Shown in pieces: positions 5,087 to 31,900 of a stretch of DNA of 64,000 bases. Under the pieces are notes generated by a model that was given only the letters and a program-made list of their open reading frames with translations, searched no databases and had not been told where the DNA came from. Each line of letters opens with the position of its first letter. Position 1 is the first letter of the stretch. Location: the NCBI RefSeq assembly GCF_018873765.1, contig NC_057923.1, positions 9,188,413 to 9,252,412 on the forward strand, in the 5' to 3' direction. A program made the translations under genes and the position numbers. Origin of the DNA: Telopea speciosissima (Eukaryota; Streptophyta; Magnoliopsida; Proteales; Proteaceae).

Positions 5087-8000
5087 ATGGTGGAGGAGAT
5101 CCAAGAAGAATATTTTCCATCACTCGTCTTCCGATGGGACGTGTTTCTGAGTTTCAGAGGCTTCGATACTCGCCATAACTTTACTAACAGCTTATACAAA
5201 GAGCTCGTACGGAACAACATCCGGACCTTTCTCGACGATGAGGGTATGGATGGAGGAGACGATCTTGCCCCGAGCCTGTCGGCGGCGATCAAGGAATCAG
5301 CGGCATACATCGCAATCATTTCGGTGAACTACGCGTCGTCGAGGTGGTGTCTGGAAGAACTCGCACAGATTTTGGAAAGCAAGCGTCGGTTGTTTCCGGT
5401 GTTCTACAAGGTGAATCGTTCTGACGTCCGCAGGCAGAAGGGCCCCTTTGAAGATCACTTCCTACACCACGAGCAACGTTATGGGAAAGAAAAGGTCCGT
5501 AAATGGAGAAGAGCTATGGAAGAAGCTGGGGGCAAGAAGGGTTGGGATTCCAGTACCTGGTATTCTCCTTACTTTCCTTTATCCTGCTTTCCGTTATCCT
5601 TCTCCAGTCTCCCCCACCCTTTCGTGTGCCTTTCATGTAATACTGTAATTGAGTAATCAAAACAGTACCACACATAATCGAAAGGATAGCCGTACACGTA
5701 CATAATCCACCTCAAAGCTTATTTCCAATAAAATAAGCCCATTCTGGTGATTTAACTGCATCAACGTTTTTTCTTTTCATTTTTGGCTCGTGGTTTTGTG
5801 TGATTACGCGAGCATTAGACAATGTCAACCTGTTATATCATTAAAGCCGAGAGGGGGGGGGGGGGGAGGAGGAGTTGATGCAGTGAGCTTGCTCCATGGC
5901 CTAGAATGGTGAGTGCATGTGGTTGTTGAACACATAACCTTAGAAGGGCTTTCTTATATCTATGGCATCAGTGTCTGTATCGTTCTTGGCTGATACCGAT
6001 TGAATGTAATTCAAAACTGATTCACTTTTTGGTTGATACACCCAATCCGGATTGGATGTAATTCAAAACTGGTTCACTTTTTGGTTGATGCACCCAATCC
6101 GTATCTGTATTGATTACACCTTCCCCTTCCAAGTTCATAATTCAGTATCCTCTTGCCACAGGGTTCCTCTCCTATTATAAAGTGCCCCAGGATTAATATC
6201 CATGCTTAGAAGAAACACATCTCCATTTGCAATTAAGACCGCTCGTTATTGGTTTGAATGCTGAACTACTTTTAAGAGTGTTATATACTGATATAAAATC
6301 TTTCCTTTCTCCACAGGAAGTTAGGATGCATGTAAAATTGTAACATCACATGGGCAGAATACCACTGCACCAAATTGTATTTGATTTCCTGTCATTTAAT
6401 TTTATTTACATTAACTATGTGCTGATGTTAACTGACAGGAAGGAGGACTTACAGTTGATTCGAGACATAGTTAAGAAGATTTTGCCTAAAGTGAATAACA
6501 GTCCCCTGGGTGTGGCTAAATATCCTGTTGGTATCAATTTGCATGTATCAGAGCTAGTGGAGCTGTTAGACATGAAATCCAATGATGTCCGAGTTGTTGG
6601 ATTTCATGGGATGGGCGGGGTTGGCAAGACCACCCTGGCTAAGGCTGTTTACAATCGGATTACTGTTCACTTTAACTGTCGCTGCTTCATTCCAAATGTT
6701 AGAGACGCTTCGAGAAAACATAATGGTTTGGTTTCCCTTAAAGAGAAACTTAATCATGAACTTAATAAAGAGCACAGTGGAGGTGAGGTTATTACAGCTA
6801 TCAATAATATTTTTGAGAAGCGAGTTCTTATTGTTCTTGATGATGTAGATGATGTAGAGCAACTTCATGCTCTAGTTGGTAATAGTGGTTGGCTTTATAA
6901 AGGAAGTAGGATCATTATCACAACAAGAAATAAAGAAGTTCTAAGGGAGGAGTTTGTGAACTTTGTCTATGAGGTGAAAGAATTAAGTTCCTCTGAGTCA
7001 CTTCAACTCTTCAGTTATCATGCATTTGGAAGAGGAACACCGGTGGAAAATTTCTTGCATCTCTCTGAGCAAATTGTATCCCTCACAGGAAGACTACCTT
7101 TGGCTTTAGAAGTATTTGGTGCTTCAATGTTCAATAGGAAAAAGGAGAAGGAGTGGGAAGCTGCACTGGAAAAGTTGAGAAATATTCAACCAGCTAATAT
7201 TCAAGAAGTGTTAAAGATAAGTTACGATGGGCTAGATGAAGAAGCGAGATGTATATTCCTTGACATTGCATGTTTCTTTGTCTCAAAAGGTATGGAGATA
7301 GAAAGTGCTATTGATATATTTAAGGGCTGTGGTTTCAATGCTGAGGAGACAATCAAAGACCTCACAGAAAAATCTCTTATCAAGATTTTGGATGACAATA
7401 CCTTGTGGATGCACGATCAACTTAGAGATATGGGACAGACAATAGCTCGACAAGAAGACTTTACAAATCCTGGTAAACGTAGTAGATTGTGGGATCGTGA
7501 TGATGTAATGGCTGTTTTGGATTCTAAAAAGGTATGCATGATAACAATTTTTTTTTCTTAACTTGTGTTGACAAAATTCTCTATTGAAACTTCAGTAACA
7601 AAGATGAACCAATCAGGGTCTGATTAAACTACTAAGCAAAAATATGGCAAGGATATTTGGGCTGCCACAGTACTACAGAAGCCAAAGGAGGATGGTTAGC
7701 AATTATGTGATAATCAAAATATACACTTATCTCCTGGACGGGCTTCCCGATGGTTTTGTAAATAGTTCATTCTCAACATGATAAATTTTTAACTTAGCTT
7801 TCACCATCACCCCTAGAAACTTCATTGAGCATTCCAAACTGATATGATTGCTGAGACCACTTACGCAACTTTCCCAATATCGTTATTAGTGCATTCCGAG
7901 GGAGAGTAACACTGTGCCATCAATTGGCTGAATTTGGAACTACAAATCTCTCAAAGATGTGTCTTTCCTTGATCTAATTCCTGATTCCATCGTAAATATT

Positions 8001-19439: not shown

Positions 19440-19924
19440 AAATAGAGAAAATAACTTGATACCCCCTTTTTTTTATTAAAAGCTACAATCTGAACTTTTA
19501 CTTTTTTGGTAGCATTGGAACATTTTTTATTTTTGAAAACACTTTTTGTTACTTTGCAATCAAGTATATATTCCATACAACTAATAGTGCCACGTAGAGA
19601 AGTGATGTGGTTTCTAGCGCTGGACCGTCCAGCTTCCACCACGGTTGGACAGAATCTTTTTGTCATTCTCATGCTATGGTACGTACGAAGTTGCAAAGGC
19701 CTAATGACGGGCGTGGCACTCCAATTTCTCCGAACCCCCACTTCACTGTACATCACGCTGGAAGCAAATTTCTACTTTTCCCTTCTTAAAATCGTCTATG
19801 GCGTTTCTCAGTGACAGTTGCAGGAGGTAGCATACACAGTGCCTGCTGTGCATCATCAAAAGGGTCTTAGAATCGGCCAGTGTCCCTTTCATCCGACGAG
19901 AGGGAGGGAGAGAGAGAGGGAGGA
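19440..19924 (+). other. Upstream region of TNL-C
   Basis: No gene is seen. It should hold the TNL-C promoter and leader. An AGAGGGAGGGAGAG purine tract lies just before the start codon. A frame opens earlier at a GTG (19880), but the ATG at 19925 aligns with the TNL-B start. Confidence 0.5.
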
Positions 19925-22900
19925 ATGGAGGAGCGCCGGAAAGATCTGCCCTCGCTCGTGTTCAGATGGGACATGTTTCTGAGTTTCGGCAAAGACACTC
20001 GAGACAACTTCACCCGCCGTTTATACGAGGAGCTTTTGCGGAACAACGTCCGGACGTTTCTGGACGATGAGGGTTTGAAGGGAGGAGACGAACTCGCCCC
20101 GGGCCTGTCGGCGGCGATCGACGAATCGGCAGCATACGTTGCAGTTATTTCGGAAAACTACGCGTGCTCGAGGTGTCTGGAAGAATTGGCCCAGATCTTG
20201 GAACGCAAGCGCCGGTTGCTTCCGGTGTTCTACAACGTGGATCCTTCTAACGTCCGCCGGCAGGAGGGTCCCTTCGAAAATCCCTTCAGATACCTTGAGA
20301 CACGTCATGGCGTAGACAAGGTCCAGAGATGGAGAAAAGCTTTGGAAAAATCTGGTGGCAAGAAGGGTTGGGATTCCATGAACTGGTACTTCCTTGCTCT
20401 TTGATTTCTCTTCCTTTTTCGTTCTTTGGTACTTCTTGTCATTTTCAGATAGTATGTGCGTGTTTTTGTGTCGTCCGATTGGTTTTGTTTTTCTGAGAGT
20501 TGATAAAGTAGCCATACACTGTATCGAGTGTGGAATCTGGAATTGTCTAATGTTAAATATCAATGGATGAAAATATGAGAAAATTACTTGGACACCCCCT
20601 TAGGCTATTGCCCGTTTTCTTACTATCCCCTTTTTTTCAAACAATTACTTGAACTCCCCGTACATTTTACCATTTCATTCAAGTAGGTCATGTTCGTTAG
20701 TTTAGTGATGATGTCATCGGTTAAATTTTTTGTAATGCCTAAACTACTCTTAAAGGGTTTCGAAGTGACAAATTTACCTCCCTTCTTCTTCTTCTTGCAA
20801 CCCCACCACCCCTACCCCCTATTGCATTGCATCTGCAACACGACTGTTCAGTGCCAATAAGATATATGGGTCAAGCCCACATTGAATCTCATCCTAAATG
20901 TTCCGCTTATATTATACCAAATCTGATTCCTGTACAACTGATTTCTGAACTCTAATGCCAGATTTGGGGGCGCATTTGTTAACATATGAACCGAATCCAA
21001 CCTCACCTCTCCGGGTCTCAAAGAGAAGGCTTGAGGGCTTGAGGGCTTGAGTTGCAATAAGCCTATCGAAGAAGTAGAGCTCGATTTCCAAGTATTCAAA
21101 CCTCACATCAATCTTGGGATTTGGGTTGGAGAAGTTAGCGAGAAATATGAAATCACCATTTACATAGTCTGGGTGATGCAGATTCATTATCGAAATGGGC
21201 TTATTTCTTTAGAAATAAGTCTAGGGTTGGAATATATATATGTTGGGCCTTTGATCCCAAGGGTTTTTTATGTAATAGGCCATTTTTATGGGCCTAAAGT
21301 TGGGTTACATGAGTTGCATACGGGAATAGCCCTATACATAGTTTATTTTCATGTTTTTAATGTTTTAAATTGAACCGGTTCAAAGCTGGTTTGAACTAGT
21401 AGTTCAATTTAAGTGATTTTATTAGTTTTTCTTTTAGTTGTTTAGTTGGGCTGGATTATGACTCTATTTTGAATCTATTTCAGTTTCCTAGTCAGTTTAA
21501 GTTAGCTAATAGGTTAAGGATTGGATTAGGCCTTTCCTTTTTAGTATCTAAGTCTATTTTTGAGTCTTCTATATAAGTTTGTAAGGGAGGCCAGCATTGA
21601 AAACGAATTTGATTAATGAAAAAACTTTTGCTTGCTACCATAGTTGCTGCTGCTCTGAGAGTATTGCATCCTTGTGGGTTTATCAAGGTGCAAAAGGTAG
21701 GTGGATCTCCTACGACTCCTTACGCCGTGATGCACTGATGGCTGGGAGAGTCTCCATTGAAGTGGTTCTATCCTTCTCCAGTGCTCAATCCAGTAAAGTT
21801 AGTTTAATTTTCTGCAATTATCCTTCTCTCCTAATCCTCTACAGCCTTCATCCTTCATTAGATTCAGCCCAAATTCCCATTAGAACCCTAAAACTTGCAA
21901 CTATTCTTCTTCCCTTCTAGAAGGTCACATGCAACGTGATTTTAGCTAGAATTCTGCCCAGCCAAATCTAACCGTTAGAATCATCTCAAGTTTTGACCTA
22001 CTGTTCTTGAACCTAATTCATTAACTTGATTTCAGTTTGGTGTAATTCTGACATGCAGATCTGTTTCTGCTGTGAATTTCCAATTCTGCCCTTATTGTTA
22101 TATTGTTCTTTTGAGGTCACAATTAATACCTATTCTGCTGATCTGTTATTGCTGATTCTTATAGGCTAAATTTGCATTCGATTACTGAACATAACCCTAA
22201 TTTCTGATCTCTGAATTTCCTGGTTAAATTACTGTTTTGCCCTTTTCCTAGTTGTACTAGGATTCCCCCATATTAGCTGATCTAACGACTGGATCAATTC
22301 CAAATTTCAACAATTGTTTCAGCCCCTATTTGGTAAGCTCTTATGGAATTTGGGATCATTCTAACCATCTGATTTTTTGTTATCAAGATTTTCCTTAATC
22401 TGAACTATCCTTTGATGAGAAGATCCTGGTTTGGTTCCTAGTTTGATTATTCGAATCTAGGACTACATTACTGGGGAATCTAAGTAAACACTATTGAGGG
22501 TCGCACTGGTAGTTTCGAGTAATGGGTACTTGGGTTTGTAGACGAGGTAGATGATCAAGGTGGAAATTCCGGCAATGATGAGAAGAAGGCTGAAGATGAG
22601 ACAAATGATAGCGTAACACCAAACGAAGGGGTTAGTCCGGCGAGGCTTCCGGAGTAGGGTGGCATTCCTTGGTTTGCCGACGATGAAGTCTGTCACCGGA
22701 GACTGTTGATTCAAGTTCAAGGTTTGCTTTGATAAGACAATTTGATTGTGAGGTGTGGGATTGTAGCGCTTCTGAGGTGGTGGTGGAAGCGGTGGAAGTG
22801 GTGGTGGTGGAAGTAGTGCTGGAGTTTTTGAGGGAAGTATCTTTGGGTTTGGGGACTGGGGAGGGAGGGGTTTTGGTTTTCAGAGGAAACCCTTGAAAAC

Positions 22901-25900
22901 AAAGAAAAATGGAGGATTTGTGGAAAAAAAAATCTGGTTACAGCAGCTTTGCCTGGAATTTCAGATTGATTGAGCCTCCAACAAAGAATCCTTGAAAGAT
23001 CTGGTGAGAACACCAGCTCTGATGAAGAAATTTCATTAACAGCTGAGACTGAAAAAACGAGGAAGAAGAAGGAGGAGGAGGGTAAGTTGGCCATTTAACT
23101 TCATAAGTTTCAGTTGAATAACTAATTAGGGTAAAATAGACATTTCCATTTAAAACACTAACAGCAAACTAACACCGTCAGGTTTCAAGGGGTGTCACGT
23201 AATTGTTTGAAAAGTTGGGGATAGTAAGAAAACGGGCAATAGTCTAGGGGGTGTCCAAGTAATTTTCTCTAAAAATATTTAATCTCCATTGACAAAAATA
23301 GCTGCATGTCAATGTCAATGTCAAATGCTGGTTTCGGTCAAGTTTATTTGTTCATGTAGAAATGAAAAGAGTAGGAGTAAATTACTGCCCTCTCCCCTCG
23401 ATTATGCCTGATGACAAGGCCCACCCCTGCATATTGAGTGATAGCTCTCCCCTCCCCTGAAATCAAAAGATTCTATCAAAAGTGATGCTTGCCTTGGCTC
23501 TTCCAATACCCCCGCTTAGTTGACGCTATGAGAACTATGCTGACATTGTCCCAGAAGACTGCTAATGCCCAAAGCCCCCGGGTTTCTTGTGCTACTTCAA
23601 TCCACATTGAGTTAAATTATAGTAAAAGGAAAAGTGTTTCCATCATCCTGAATGTTATCCTTGTGAGGCTTTGGTAAACCAAGTGGATTAATTTGTGTCT
23701 ATTTAATTTTTTTAATCTTTGTTTGAGACCCCAAAAAAGAAAAAATTGGTGGCTTTCTATTCTCTGTCCAGACAATATTCCTTTTCATTTCAACTAGAAT
23801 AATGAACTTGTTATGTGTTCAGAGTTTTGTTTCCATTATCTATGTCTGTCAATGCTTTTGACAGGAAGGACAACTCGCAGTTGATACAAGATATAATTAA
23901 GAATATTTTGCGTGAAGTGAATAACACTCCCTTAGGTGTGGCTAAACATCCTGTGGGAATCAAATTTCGTGTTGAAGAGCTGATGAAATTGTTAGATGTT
24001 AAATCCAATGAGGTTCAAGTCATAGGATTTCAAGGGATGGGGGGTATTGGCAAGACCACCCTTGCTAAGGCTGTTTACAATAAGATTGCTTCTGAATTTG
24101 AACACCGAAGCTTTATTTTTGATATCAGGGAAACTTCGAGCCAACATAAAGGTTTAATTTCCCTTCAAAAGCAACTTATCCATGATCTTTTCAGTGAAAA
24201 ATTCCTTGCAAATGAGGTTAGTGAAGGTATCATTAAGATCAGAGAAAGAGTTAACGAAAAGCGAGTTCTTATTGTTTTAGATGATGTCGATGATGCAAGC
24301 CAACTTGATGCGGTAGCTGGTGCAAGGGATTGGTTTTTTGATGGAAGTATAATCATTATCACCACAAGAGACAAGAAAGTTTTAAGGAAACCATTTGTTA
24401 ATGAAATCTATGAGGTGAAAGAGCTTAGTTCCATTGAATCGCTTCAACTCTTCAGTCATCATGCATTTGGTAAGGGAAAACCTGCAGATAATTTCTTGCA
24501 TCTCTCTGAGCAAGTTGTGTCCCTCACAGGAGGACTACCTTTGGCTCTAGAAGTATTTGGAGCTTTGCTGTTCAATAAGAAAAAGGAAATGGAGTGGGTA
24601 GAAGCACTGGAGAAGTTGAGAAAGATTCAGCCCGGTAATCTTCAAGAAGTTTTGATGATAAGTTACAATGTTCTAGATGAAGAAGAGAAGTGTGTATTTC
24701 TTGACATCGCTTGTCTCTTTGTCAAAATAAGGATGGATAGAGAAAGCGCCATTGATATATTTAAGGGCTGTGGTTTCAATGCGGAGATGGTGATCAAAGA
24801 CCTTACAGAAAAATCTCTCATTAAGATTGGGTATGACAATACCTTATGGATGCATGATCAACTTAGAGACATGGGACAGATGATTGTTCGAAAAGAAAAC
24901 CTTATAGATCCCAGCAAGCATAGTAGATTGTGGGATCAACATGAAATAATGGATGTTCTGAATTTTAGGAAGGTATGAACTAAATTCTTGATAGCACTTC
25001 TTTTTCTCCTCTCTTATTCTGACAGCGTCCTCTACAGAATTTTTATAGAGAAGCTGAGCCAATCAGAGAATAATTAAAGTGACTTGACAAGTGTTCCCCC
25101 CCCCCCCCCTCCTTCCAATGAATCAATAATTTGTTTAGACATCCTTTGGGGACTGACAAGGACACAACTTCTTTTGTTTATTGGAAAATATACCCTTAAC
25201 TCTTGGGCAGGCTTCTGTAAACTTCTGTATAGGTTTCATGCTCAACATAATAGCATAACAAAGAAGCTGAATGGAGAGTGGGACTTCATGGCACCCACTA
25301 ATGAAGGGGAGCCATGATTTTGAACCTCTTGTCTTCAGTCATGTGCCCCACATAGATTTGAAGCTTTAAATTTTATTTTTTCTTTTTGACTTGGGAAAAT
25401 TTCTAGAAAATCATCACAGAAAGAACTATTCTCTAATTTTTTGTGTCAAAACCTAAATTTACCCCTCACTATCTTTTGCCTTTTGTCTGTTTGAATGTTC
25501 AAAATGGCAACACCACCACTAAAAATCATGTTGTAAGTGTTTAAAAATACATTTAAAGGGTTAGCAAGCCTTCTTATATGAAGGACAAAATACTGCAAAA
25601 AAAACACATTTTAGGATACTTCTCTCTTTTCCCCATGCTTTGATTGTTAGAGAGCTATTAGAGGGGTAAGATGACGCCCTTAGTTTTGATGGATACACAA
25701 ATTAAACAATCGACTTTTGGTTGGGATGCTACTTGTAGATATTCCTGTCTGGTGTTTCCTCTCTTTTTCCCCCTACTTTTTTGAGATCCTCCAAATTAAG
25801 AAATAGACGATGATTTGGCAGGCCGGTGGCCTATTTCAACTGTATGGTTCACCATCTATGGGCTTTACCCTTGAATTTTGTTGAAATATTGATCCGGTTC

Positions 25901-28900
25901 ATAATTGGTTCTCTACAATTGGTTCTTTTCTATGTAATGTCTAGATTCAATGTACCTGCATGCTAGATAAGGCCTATGAGTCAGCCCTAGCTAGCATCCC
26001 TTATTTGTAATTCCTTTTCATCATTATAAATAGAGTAGTGGCCTCTATCACTCTGACAAGCCATTATTCTCTCAACTCTCTTCTCTTCTTCTCTAAATTC
26101 TTCTTGGTATCAGAGCCCAATTCTTTTGGGATTTTTTTTTCTTGATCTCTTGTGAAGGTCAGCCCCGTAACAGAGGCTTCGGCCTCCCAAGGCTAAGCAT
26201 GGTTACCTAAATGTCATGCTGCCTCCTTTGCTGACCACTAACACCACCACCGCCACCATTTCTGCCGTTGCCACCACCATCTGAGGGTTTACCGACCATA
26301 TGACCAGGGGCCTCAACCCTAACCTCTGACGCCGTCCGCTGCACTAGGGGCCTCTGCCCCTTTGATCAACCCCGCCAAGTACCAACAGGGGTCTTTGCCC
26401 CTCCGTTTGACGTTACCAGGCCCCGCCAGGGCTTTCCGCCCCCTGTTCGATGCCGCCTGGCCTCTGCCCCCTGTTTCAACACCGCTAGGCTCCATATGGG
26501 GGATAAGTAAGAGAAGAGGGGAAATCTGAGAAGGGAAACCTGAGAAGAATCAGAGTTGCAGGGGAAAAGAGAAGAAACCGTGAAGAAGAAGAAATAGAGG
26601 CGGGGGGGAAGAAGAGAGAGCAAACGCACACAATTCAAACTCAATTCATTCTTTCATTATCTCAATGATGGGGGATTACATCATATATAAAGAAAAATAA
26701 AACTCACTGATGCAAGAGAATTTTGGACCGGCCTGGCCCAACTGGTGCACTACCTTGGACTGACCCAACTCAATTGAACCGGGTCTAGTTTGAATTTTTG
26801 GATCTAGTAGTATTTTTGGAATTTATCTTATTTGGGGAAATAATGTGTTTCATTCTTTCATCATCTCAATGATGGAGGATTCCATCATATATAAAGAAAG
26901 ATAAAATACTCCTAAAAAAAAAAAACTCATTGATGCAGGAGAATTTTGGACCGGACCGGCCCAACTGGTGCACTACCTTGGACCGACCCAACTCAATTGA
27001 ACCGGGTCCAATTTGAATTTTTGGATCTAGTAGTATTTTAGGAATTTATCTTATTTGGGGAAATAATGTGTTTTAGTTTATTTTATTCTCTCTTTATTTT
27101 AGAAGTTAGTTACGTAGGATATTTGGTTTCCAATTGTTTTTGTTTCCCTCTTTGGATAAGTTTTAGTTAGAGGGTGAGTTTTATTTTTTCAGGAGTCTTT
27201 TATTTTTCTTTATATATGATGTAATCCCCCATCATTGAGATTATGAAAGAATGGATTGAGTTTCTGTTTCTGGTTGTGTGCGTGTGCACTCTCCTTCCCC
27301 CCCCCCCCCTCCTTCTCACGACCTCTTCTCTTTTCTCCAAGCAACTCTGATGCTTCTTAGATTTCCCCTCTTCTCCTTCCCGGTCCCCCATTACTCACCC
27401 TCTAACTAAAACTTATCCAAAGAGGGAAACTAAAACAATTCGAAACCAAATATCCTACGTAACTAACTTCTAAAATAAAGAGAGAATAAAATAAACTAAA
27501 ACACATTATTTCCCCAAATAAGATAAATTCCTAAAATCCTACTAGATCAAAAAATCCAAATTGGACCCGGTTCAATTGAGTTTGAGTTGATCCAAGGTAG
27601 TGCACCAATTGGGCCAGCCCGGTCCATGATTCTTCTGCATCACTCTGCCCCTTGTTTCGTCGCCGTCCAGCACTGCTAGGGGCTTCCACCCCCTCTCGCT
27701 GCACCTGAGGCCCTCTCGCCCCTTGCTCCAACACCGACAGAGGCTCTCGCCTCCTCTTTTCTTTCGATCGACTTTACAAGGGCCGCTGCCCCCTTATAGT
27801 TGCTGCTGCATGTTGTTTACTCCACTTTGCCGCTGGACTGCTTACATGCCAGGTTCTTTTTTCGCTTCTCATTGATTGATTATTGCCCTTCTATGCTTCC
27901 ACTTTCGAGTTGATTGTTCTCTACATGTTTGTGAGTACTTTTTTGGCCCCCTCTACTATTACTTTTTCTCCTTAAATGGAGGACAGTTCAACTACATCTA
28001 CAAGGAGAGTTGAGGGTAGTGTGGAGGGTCGTCTTGGAACCCATGACCATAACCCTACTCTCCCAATTGGGCCTACTAAGTTGAATGGGGCTAACTACCT
28101 GACTTGATCTCGAGCTTGTATGCTCACGATACGTGCTAATAATCTCCAAGGTACTAAAACTCAGAACTCGACCCCAACTCGAGTTAGAAACTAAATGGAG
28201 GTTGATTCTAATGGAGGAACAAGGTCTAATAGCAAGAGGAAGAGAAGGAGAAGTGAAGAAGGAAGAAGAAGATAAGAGTTGAGAGAAATCATTAGAAGAG
28301 GAAAAACTATTCCTCTCCCCTATATTGTTTCATTAAACACTCATGGAAATTATGTATACCTCCCTAGGGAGGTAGAAGGTAAAAAAGTAATAAAGATAAA
28401 ATTACAACTTAACATAACATTCCAGTAAATAAGAGACTAAAGTACCCCTAATCTCTAACACTCCCCCTCAAGCTGGAGAATAAATGTCATGCATTCCCAG
28501 CTTGCATAATAGAGTACCAAACTGAAGAGAAGTAAGCCCTTTGGTGAATATGTCCGCCAATTGATCACCAGTCTTCACAAAAGGAGTGCAAATGTAGCCA
28601 GAGTCTATCTTCTCCTTGATGAAGTGTCGGTCCACTTTGATGTGCTTTGTTCTGTCATGTTGCACAGGATTGTGGGCTACACTTATGGCAGCCTTGTTAT
28701 CACAATAAAACCTCATAGATGCTTCAGTATCGAACCCCAACTCTTGGACTAACCTCTTCAACCATAGGAGTTCACAAACTCCATGAGCCATAGCCCTAAA
28801 ATCAGCGTCTGCACTAGATCTGGCCACCACATGTTGCTTCTTACTCCTCCAAGGGACTAAATTACCACCCACAAATGTACAATAGCCTGATGTAGATTGT

Positions 28901-31900
28901 CTATCTGAAATTGAACCAGCCCAATCAGCATCAGTGTAGCCTTCTATCCTCAAATGGTTTTGCCTGGTATAGAGAAGACCTTTTACTGGAGAAGATTTCA
29001 AATATCTGATGATGCGATATACAGCATCCAAGTGCTCACTCTTGGGGGCATGCATAAATTGGCTCACCACTTCAACTGCATAAGTGACATCTGGGCGAGT
29101 CAAAGAGAGATAAATCAACTTCCTTACAAGCCTTTGGTATTTTCTTGCATCAACAAGGGGAGGTCCACAGTCTTCTCCAAGCTTATGATTCTGCCCATTC
29201 TTGATCTCTTCTCTCATAACTAATTGGCTGTATTCTTTTATCTCAATCCATCATCATCTACGTTCCACCATCAACCTCTTCCTGTATTCCAGTTGGAAGT
29301 CCTACCAATATTTTTCCAATGCAGTTATTTATGACATCTTTGCTCCATGTTAATTTGGTAAAAGGGAGCCTTGTGTACTTGCACTTACATTTATTTGGGC
29401 ATGAGCTTTATGGTTGGTAGAGAAGCTTGTTGTCCTAGTTAGATCGTAGATAAGCTGCAAATCCAGGTTCAAACGCAGCACATAGACGGGTAAAGCCCAT
29501 GTTATTGTATGTGCTGTTACATGCAAGATTTTATATTCTGCTAACATCAAAAAAGGTGGAAAAACTTTGTGTTGTGCCCCCATCAAAAAAGTTATACATC
29601 TTTGTATTTTATTGTTCTACCGTTGACTGTTCAGTTCCAGTCTTGTGAAGTTCTCTTTATATGTTTTGGCTTTAGGGAACAGGTGAGACTCAAGCTATAA
29701 TCCTTGATTTTGAAGATCATAAGAGGATTTTAGAGTCAAAGGTTTTAGAGTCAAAAAGACCATCTACAATCAGCAACTGGAGTCCCATTTCATACTTGAA
29801 TGAAAATTTCAAGAATGCATTTTATTTTAAAGCTGAAGAAGATAACGATCAGGTCAAATTGTGCACCAAAATGTTTCAGCCAATGATCAATTTGAGACTA
29901 CTTCAAATCAATCATGTGAACTTGGAGGGAGACTTTAAGCATATGCCTGCTAATCTGAAATGGCTACAATGGAAAGGGTGCCCTTTGGAAGCTCTTCCTT
30001 CTGATTTTTGCCCGTGGAAACTTGCTGTCATTGATCTCTCAGAGAGTAAGATTAAACAAGTATGGAAGCAAAGATCGTGGAAAGGTCAGTTCAAGGTGAG
30101 TTCTCACCGACCCCAGTTAGCTACATTGATCAACTTGTCAACTTGAGAACATGCCCCTAATGTCTTGATCCCAAGTGGTCACCTAATTCATCTTTTCCCA
30201 TCAGTCCTTTAGTTTTTCTTGTACTGGTTGGTTCTTCACCTTAAAATGACTTTAACATTGTGTAACCTTGAATGAGCTGTGTCTATGATGCGGCATTGAC
30301 TGCAAGGCATTTGTTCTCATCCATGGGTACGAAACATATTTGCATGCACATATTAAATGGATATATTTGGGTTGTATAGGAGGAAATCAAGAACATAGCT
30401 TTTTGTACATGCACCACCAAACACTGCCTTCACCATTTTTGCCTGAATTCCAATTTGATGATGTAAAATATAAAAGTGAAATTTTTGTTAAAAAACCGTG
30501 TTAATCAATTGAATCATGATGAGCACCAGTAGAAAAACAAAACAAATGAACTAGTTTGTGTGTATGGATGAGAGAGAGAGGAGTTCACTCTAATAGTGTA
30601 ACCTTTTTGATTGATAAGTTCGTAAATATTTGAGATGATGGAGCTTGTTAAGGTGGAGCTCTGGAGCAATATCTTAGTAAGATTGGTATTAGAGGAGGGG
30701 ACATGTATTGCCAACTTTATCTAATCCATCCTTAACTATAAAGTGGGATCATTACCATATATTTCCATCTGTGTGTCAATATAGTAGTCCTCTTCCTGTT
30801 TCGTTTTGAGTGAGTTCATGTCTCCATGATTGGTTATTTATTCTGTTGCAGCTGACAGCCTTGTTCTTGAACAGATGGCTAAGGATTTGCAGGTCATGAA
30901 TCTCCGTGGTTGTTGTAATCTAACTGCTACACCTGATTTCTGTGGGCATCCAAAATTGGAAAAACTGATTCTTGAGCGTTGTTTAAAGCTGAAAGAGATT
31001 CATAAATCAGTTGGGGATCTTAGCATGTTACGCCTTTTAAACCTGAAAGACTGCTGGAGTCTTGAGAATTTGCCAAATGATATCTCTGGGTTGAGAAAGC
31101 TTGAAACCCTTATCCTCTCTGAATGCTTGGAGCTGAAACAATTACCAGAAGATTTGAGGCCCATGAGGTCTTTGACAGAGCTTTTGGTTGATCAAACTGC
31201 CATAGTAAAGCTACCTGATTCTGTATTCCATCTCGAGAAACTTGAGAGGTTGAGTCTCAGAAAATGTTTGTCACTGAAGCAACTACCACTTTCAACAGGA
31301 AAATTGGTTTCTTTAAGAGAACTTCATCTTGATGGTTCTGCTTTGGAAGAACTACCTGATTCCATTGGATCGTTGGAAAACCTGGAAATTCTAAGTTTAA
31401 CGAGTTGCAAATCAGTCACTGCAATTCCTGATTCCATTGGCAATTTGACATCATTGTTGGAACTTTTTCTTAATGGTAGTGCAATCAAAGAACTGCCAGA
31501 TTCTGTTGGCTTTCTATCTAATTTGAAGCTCTTATATTTGAGTGGTTGTCAGTCTCTTTGCGAATTGCCTGCTTCTATCGGAGGATTAATGTCTATGATT
31601 GAACTTCATCTGGACTTCACACCAATCAGAGAACTACCAATTCAGATTGGAAAATTGAACATGCTTGGGAAGCTTCTGATGATTAACTGTACGGCACTTG
31701 CCTGTTTACCAGTTTCAATTGGATACATGTCAAATCTAACTACTTTGGTCCTAGAAAATGGCATTATAATGGAGTTGCCAGAGTCTATCTGTTTATTGCA
31801 GAAGCTTGAGGTATTGAGGGTCGCAAAATGTAGACAGCTTAGCCGACTTCCAGAATCAATCGGAAAACTAAAGAATCTGCGCTGGCTCCAGATGGAAGAA

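Follow-up and report, generated by a model that had tools for sequence, protein, structure and literature searches.

We report here a nested pair of transposable elements within intron 1 of a predicted TIR-NB-ARC (TNL) immune-receptor gene of Telopea speciosissima. The stretch of DNA analysed, hereafter the window, covers 64,000 nucleotides (C8:9188413-9252412) of this 823-Mb, 1,287-contig plant genome. The outer element, element W, is very probably a decayed non-autonomous Mutator-like element (MULE) of the Pack-MULE kind, which carries a piece captured from a single LEA_2/NHL-type gene and was later split by a long terminal repeat (LTR). A sequence-only reading of the window had proposed a Pack-MULE, a gene capture and a position within the TNL intron. 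All three are supported by the inverted ends, the target duplication, the parental gene, a sibling copy and the open reading frame across the predicted exon join.

Ends, target duplication and family of the element

The features of the outer element are as follows.

20577-23269, no strand: Pack-MULE, element W, 2,693 bp with the nested insert (terminal inverted repeats, target duplication, end family, captured gene, sibling on C2)
20568-20576, plus strand: left 9-bp target duplication, TGAAAATAT
20577-20659, plus strand: left terminal inverted repeat, 83 bp (local alignment)
20577-20855, no strand: left terminal and subterminal region common to the family (alignments of C1:65070423 and C1:38783382 extend to query 279; L075 aligns through 20855)
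22937-23269, no strand: right family-shared subterminal and terminal region
23189-23269, minus strand: right terminal inverted repeat, 81 bp (local alignment)
23270-23278, plus strand: right 9-bp target duplication, TAAAAATAT, one difference from the left

The inverted ends of W are perfect over 24 nt (20577-20600 and 23246-23269) and are continued by a 57-nt arm at 89%. In a gapped alignment, the terminal inverted repeats were well conserved over 83 and 81 bp, respectively, and then became degenerate to about 220 bp. The flanking 9-bp sequences, TGAAAATAT and TAAAAATAT, are identical at 8 of the 9 positions. The long inverted ends at 20577 and 23269 and the near-identical target duplications that the sequence-only reading had described were thus both borne out.

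Then the ends were searched for in the whole genome. The 22-base end, with at most one mismatch, was found 274 times in the forward and 272 times in the reverse orientation (546 ends), and the reversed-pattern control gave 0 and 0. The target duplication was examined in 17 two-ended elements, that is, W and 16 distinct elements (the sibling on C2 included) from 37 scanned loci; loci with a single end and second loci of one element were left out. At the computed ends, the 9-bp flanks of one and the same element were at least 8/9 identical in 12 of the 17 elements, against 4 of 272 swapped pairs. When shifts of the ends by up to 2 bases were allowed, the duplication was matched in 15 of the 17 elements and in 15 of the 272 swapped pairs. 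Because 546 ends were found against none in the control, and because own-flank matches exceed those of swapped pairs, the end family is not a product of chance.

In the part of PMC3310237 that concerns definitions, MULEs are given target duplications of 9-11 bp and terminal inverted repeats typically of 100-500 bp, with at least 50 bp in its rule for elements with multiple terminal inverted repeats; Pack-MULEs are described there as non-autonomous elements with genes or gene fragments as cargo. The target duplications of W and its end family fall within the 9-11 bp of MULEs. MULE transposase domains are abundant in the genome (828 candidates, the best 150 scored), and the window was absent among the transposase domains of these best 150. 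Three reading frames of W searched in Pfam contained no transposase, the remaining frames being viewed by eye only. That is, W holds a gene fragment and no recognised transposase, as a Pack-MULE does.

The captured gene and its parent

The captured gene is represented in W by the following features.

20853-21173, minus strand: C-terminal part, to parental codon 229 of 255 (alignment to the parent)
22471-22920, minus strand: N-terminal part with 75 bp upstream of the parental ATG (93% to the parent)
22838-22840, minus strand: position of the parental start codon, ATA for ATG

A search for the parental gene elsewhere in the genome gave an uninterrupted homologue on C10, and a search for other copies of the element gave a sibling with the same captured piece on C2, both in line with the sequence-only reading. 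The N-terminal half (query 1-450) matches C10:49707338-49707782 at 93%, and the C-terminal half (about 320 bp) matches C10:49707020-49707342 at 87%. These two matches are contiguous on C10, with an overlap of 5 bases that corresponds to the target site of the LTR. The parental gene (locus L071, 3441-4208, minus strand) is uninterrupted and open over 255 codons. Its LEA_2 domain scores 29.5 bits against a cut-off of 25.4, which places it within LEA_2, a domain with 47 matches in the genome. The C-terminal piece in W alone scores 13.3 bits, under the cut-off, and its N-terminal piece gave no LEA_2 match in Pfam. LEA_2 genes of the parental shape are called NHL, which is also the label used in the sequence-only reading. 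The defence-type character that this reading gave to the gene is not supported, membership in LEA_2 being what the analysis established. Among the papers searched, none joined Pack-MULE with NDR1.

The captured stretch is approximately 763 bp long (L071 3521-4283) and comprises 229 of the 255 codons together with the 75 bp that precede the ATG. The opposite-strand gene in two parts and its frameshift, as read from the sequence alone, are real, the frameshift being a 7-bp tandem duplication near 21029-21042. The C-terminus had been taken as lost; the parental match stops at codon 229, the last 26 parental codons lie outside the captured stretch, and they were never captured. Besides these changes, there is a 9-bp in-frame deletion near 20972 in the C-terminal part, and the start codon of W is also gone (ATG to ATA), which that reading had not listed.

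The parental locus L071 showed no element-end matches in 8,001 bases, so that an identifiable parent is present and is not flanked by terminal inverted repeats. This agrees with the rule stated in part of PMC4858842, in which the parent is the best match not flanked by terminal inverted repeats. With the N-terminal query, all four candidates were scored: W itself, the parent, the sibling on C2 and one match of 43 bases. Another fragment of the parental gene type lies at C10:36049442 (L079, C10:36048900-36050700) and covers the C-terminal half only (about 546-930, 85%). We rejected this fragment as the parent, since it matches the C-terminal part alone and was not listed in the N-terminal search. 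The homology of L079 begins a few bases from the target site of the LTR; this is unexplained and we take it as a coincidence.

The limits of the capture can be read from the junctions. On the left, the family member L075, which is the same element as L046 and carries another cargo, aligns with W through the GCC ending at 20855; the alignment with the parent begins with this very GCC, at 20853. That is, 3 bp (GCC) at the left capture junction are common to the element and the parent. On the right, 16 bases that belong to neither separate the end of the parental match (22920) from the point at which the family sequence, here in common with L074, starts again (22937). According to the portion of PMC8277862 on breakpoints, 67.6% of animal Pack-TIRs have microhomology at one breakpoint at least, its median length being 2 bp.

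The nested solo LTR

The insert between the two parts of the captured gene has the following features.

21169-21173, plus strand: left CTGGG target duplication of the solo LTR
21174-22470, plus strand: nested solo LTR, 1,297 bp, oriented like the TNL gene
21570-21576, plus strand: TATATAA inside the solo LTR, candidate promoter motif (conserved in 15 of the 16 alignments, drawn from 15 loci)
22471-22475, plus strand: right CTGGG target duplication of the solo LTR

The captured gene lies in two parts because this LTR splits it. The sequence-only reading was right about the two parts and overlooked their cause. The insert starts with TGATGC and ends with CTACATTA. When the whole element was used as the query (79 matches from the best 40 of 6,620 candidates), many matches besides W itself and the sibling were confined to query positions of about 593-1914. 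Both ends were inspected at ten other LTR loci, and 5-bp duplications were recognised by eye in five of them (L013, L019, L020, L030 and L037); none was recognised by eye at L010, L014, L017, L022 and L028. For L017 and L022, the lack of own duplications is expected, because both are LTRs of one element: they lie about 1.3 kb apart, and the 5' LTR is followed by TGGTATCAGAGCC, which we take to be a plant primer-binding site. Of fourteen 3' ends of the LTR family, 11 read ATTA, two ATGA and one GTTA.

We therefore consider the insert to be a solo LTR, on the grounds of the CTGGG duplication, the further copies with 5-bp duplications and the relative with two LTRs; the insert consists of one LTR with no internal region. 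We rejected an intron of the captured gene as the cause of the two parts, since the parent is uninterrupted at this position and the insert, a repeat, is flanked by a target duplication of its own.

The sibling copy and the decay of the captured gene

The sibling at C2:49728570-49730050 is 1,481 bp long, aligns with the outer element in three pieces (89-92%), contains no LTR, and is flanked by its own target duplication, TTTTTCATT and TTTTTTATT. W and the sibling have in common a 4-base insertion that is absent from the parent. Since the two copies share this insertion and the capture junctions, a single capture is favoured.

The sibling also bears on another explanation, namely that an ancestral neighbour or a dispersed duplicate accounts for the gene piece and that the inverted repeats around it are there by chance. 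Fragments of this gene type do disperse, as the fragment at C10:36049442 (85%) shows. However, the copy on C2 has the same capture limits inside the same ends, the junctions are flush with those of family members carrying other cargo, and target duplications are present. An ancestral neighbour is disfavoured because the sibling shares the capture limits and the parent has no element ends, and we regard this explanation as having almost no probability.

The three sequences were compared site by site. Over the aligned captured stretch, W and the sibling agree with each other and differ from the parent at 32 sites, W agrees with the parent alone at 26, and the sibling agrees with the parent alone at 18. 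The corresponding numbers are 17, 7 and 9 for the C-terminal half and 15, 19 and 9 for the N-terminal half. For the C-terminal part only, the C10 fragment could serve as an outgroup; of 16 sites separating the parent from both copies, 10 then looked like changes on the side of the parent and 6 like changes on the side of the element.

We calculated dN/dS values by the Nei-Gojobori method, leaving out codons with gaps or stops. The value was 0.44 between the parent and W (223 codons), 0.42 between the parent and the sibling (217 codons), and 1.01 between W and the sibling (213 codons; 8 synonymous and 28 non-synonymous differences). In the sibling, the captured copy shows a deletion of 19 bp and, when read in the parental frame, three stops; neither copy retains an intact frame. 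Judged by these comparisons, the captured copies of W and the sibling differ from each other like neutral sequence.

Cargo of other elements with the same ends

In an all-versus-all comparison of 15 elements, six had one common interior, two had another, and W and the sibling had theirs; the interiors of the remaining five were mostly their own, some of them partly overlapping. From eight other elements, 17 reading frames were listed, and seven frames from five elements were chosen for Pfam. The frame at L046 585-848, in an element on C1, contains a piece of PsbO/MSP over the cut-off (E 2e-16), and the frame at L049 1092-1424 contains a VARLMGL motif over the cut-off (E 1e-7). The frame at L057 2296-2586 is ankyrin-like, slightly under the cut-off (E 6e-4). 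Among the other four frames, two gave weak matches far under the cut-off and two gave none. The end family has picked up several unrelated genes. The ankyrin-like piece of L057 has 10 further matches in the genome, two of them shorter than 70 bases.

Several observations weigh against our interpretation of W. Two of the 17 elements, L063 and L076, had no good target duplication even after shifts of the ends. The terminal inverted repeat of W, at 83 bp, is shorter than the 100-500 bp given as typical in the definitions of PMC3310237. None of the best 150 of the 828 MULE transposase candidates lay within about 100 kb of the listed places of terminal inverted repeats, as compared by eye, and in a 4.6-kb pair of terminal inverted repeats the first 2,851 bases contained four frames of at least 100 codons, in none of which a transposase was recognised by eye. 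For the outer element, no empty site was seen in a genome search, in which the flank 20386-20576 matched itself alone. About 114 bases of the sibling (L039 1781-1894) have no match in W. Finally, the N-terminal part of W lies closer to the parent, at 94.4%, than to the sibling, at 93.3%, with 19 uniting sites against 15. We read this closeness as a probable sign of faster decay in the sibling; alternatively, the N-terminal half may have had a separate history.

The host immune-receptor gene

The exons and the intron of the host gene are as follows.

19871-20385, plus strand: TIR-domain exon of the TNL gene (PF01582, E 2e-31; frame open from 19871, exon start taken as the frame limit)
20386-23864, plus strand: intron 1 of the TNL gene, which holds the element (predicted from the sequence; phase 2; 3,479 bp)
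23865-24978, plus strand: NB-ARC exon of the TNL gene (PF00931, E 1.6e-35; frame limit, stop at 24976-24978)

When the GT at 20386 is joined to the AG at 23864, the frame stays open (GWDSMNWKDNSQ; W-K-D-N-S-Q) up to the stop at 24976-24978. By this join, the element falls within a predicted intron, and its captured piece runs antisense to the TNL gene. The TIR and NB-ARC exons form one predicted gene of the TNL immune-receptor type, as judged from Pfam, the open join and the phase of a paralog. Such TIR-NB-ARC genes are consistent with the plant origin of the window.

The paralogous TNL gene, at 5109-7536 of the window, is identical to the element-bearing gene at 79% in the TIR stretch and at 77% in the NB-ARC stretch. 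Its intron has the same phase and measures 879 bp without such an element. Intron 1 of the element-bearing gene, minus the element and one target duplication, would measure 777 bp. When the flanks 19871-20576 and 23270-24978 were compared with the paralog within the window, the match comprised the exons plus at most about 40 bases of the adjoining intron; in a comparison of the introns, for which the left side alone was used, the best E value of the left flank was 0.066. A minus-strand open frame of 260 codons at 28468-29250, placed between the NB-ARC frame and downstream LRR frames, resembles by eye the RNase H end of a Copia-type polyprotein.

Possible effects on the host gene and on the parent

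Most likely, the nested elements have no function beyond making the intron longer. The position and the direction of the LTR nevertheless raise the possibility that it alters the processing of the TNL transcript by way of poly(A) sites, splice sites or a promoter, which would give transcripts with the TIR domain only or without it. The LTR runs in the direction of the TNL gene, its TATATAA motif is kept in the alignments described above, and read-through past the TIR exon would lead to a stop after five residues (YFLAL after the W codon). Precedents exist in Arabidopsis, where, in the sections of PMC8116057 on these two genes, a transcript spliced to a transposable element encodes the TIR domain of RPP4 alone, and poly(A) sites lie in a COPIA element in intron 1 of RPP7. 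However, a scan of the plus strand of the intron found no AATAAA, AATGAA being present twice and AATAAT once. Intronic LTRs, moreover, are often spliced out harmlessly, which counts against altered processing. We consider this effect unlikely.

A different proposal, put forward in part by the sequence-only reading, is that W gives rise to small RNAs directed against the parental gene: antisense sequence in the TNL pre-mRNA would pair with the parental mRNA, or dicing of a hairpin formed by the terminal inverted repeats would spread to the captured piece. The captured gene is antisense to the TNL gene, 162 of its 726 21-mers match the parent exactly (119/430 and 43/296), and the longest identical run is 46 nt. 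Small RNAs of Pack-MULEs and a potential regulation of parental genes are mentioned in portions of both PMC4858842 and PMC3310237. Against this, the antisense stretch is intronic, is 7% diverged by substitutions and is interrupted, and what PMC4858842 describes in the section concerned is mainly 24-nt RNAs and the methylation of the elements themselves. The proposal therefore seems very unlikely to us. Of the two routes, the one by way of an LTR lying in sense orientation between the TIR exon and the NB-ARC exon may be somewhat more plausible.

It has also been considered that the nested insertions might together form a regulatory switch, in which the LTR would give a TIR-only isoform and the antisense piece would give small RNAs tying the expression of the receptor to that of an NHL-type gene at another place in the genome. 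We hold this idea to be scarcely probable, and we retain the interpretation of W as a decayed Pack-MULE whose presence lengthens the intron.

Comparison with known systems and proposed history

Like the Pack-MULEs of rice, tomato and Arabidopsis, W is non-autonomous, has fairly long terminal inverted repeats and a 9-bp target duplication, and holds a gene fragment with no recognised transposase. It also resembles them in having an unlinked intact parent, more than one copy and microhomology at one capture junction. It differs from them in the length of its terminal inverted repeat (83 bp, typically 100-500 bp), in being split by a solo LTR and in its place inside the intron of an immune receptor. 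The nested LTR is similar to plant solo LTRs in its TG start, its 5-bp target duplication, its many copies and its two-LTR relative, whereas its end is ATTA and not the usual CA. As far as the treatment of these loci in PMC8116057 goes, COPIA-R7 of RPP7 and the transposable element of RPP4 in Arabidopsis are also comparable, being located in intron 1 (RPP7) or spliced to exon 1 (RPP4) of the receptor gene. Unlike those cases, the present one involves two nested elements, with the cargo of the outer element antisense to the host, and is known from sequence alone.

The history of the locus can be traced as follows. An element of this end family took up approximately 763 bp of the LEA_2/NHL-type gene on C10, as the junctions show, probably through template switching or gap repair. 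The element then moved, presumably with the transposase acting in trans, and gave rise to the copies on C2 and C8, as is shown by the copies themselves and their target duplications; the copy on C8 lies in intron 1 of the TIR-NB-ARC gene with the captured gene antisense. An LTR retrotransposon entered the captured gene, and one of its LTRs was left, presumably by recombination between the two LTRs. Both captured copies decayed without protein constraint.

In conclusion, W is a real and ordinary example of a known and well-understood kind of event. Its main stages are visible in one genome, that is, an intact parent, a flush junction, a sibling free of the LTR and an end family with several kinds of cargo, and the site that the LTR later entered is still empty in the sibling. 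For annotation purposes, the 'NHL' frames on the opposite strand of the TNL intron are the cargo of a transposon and not a gene.

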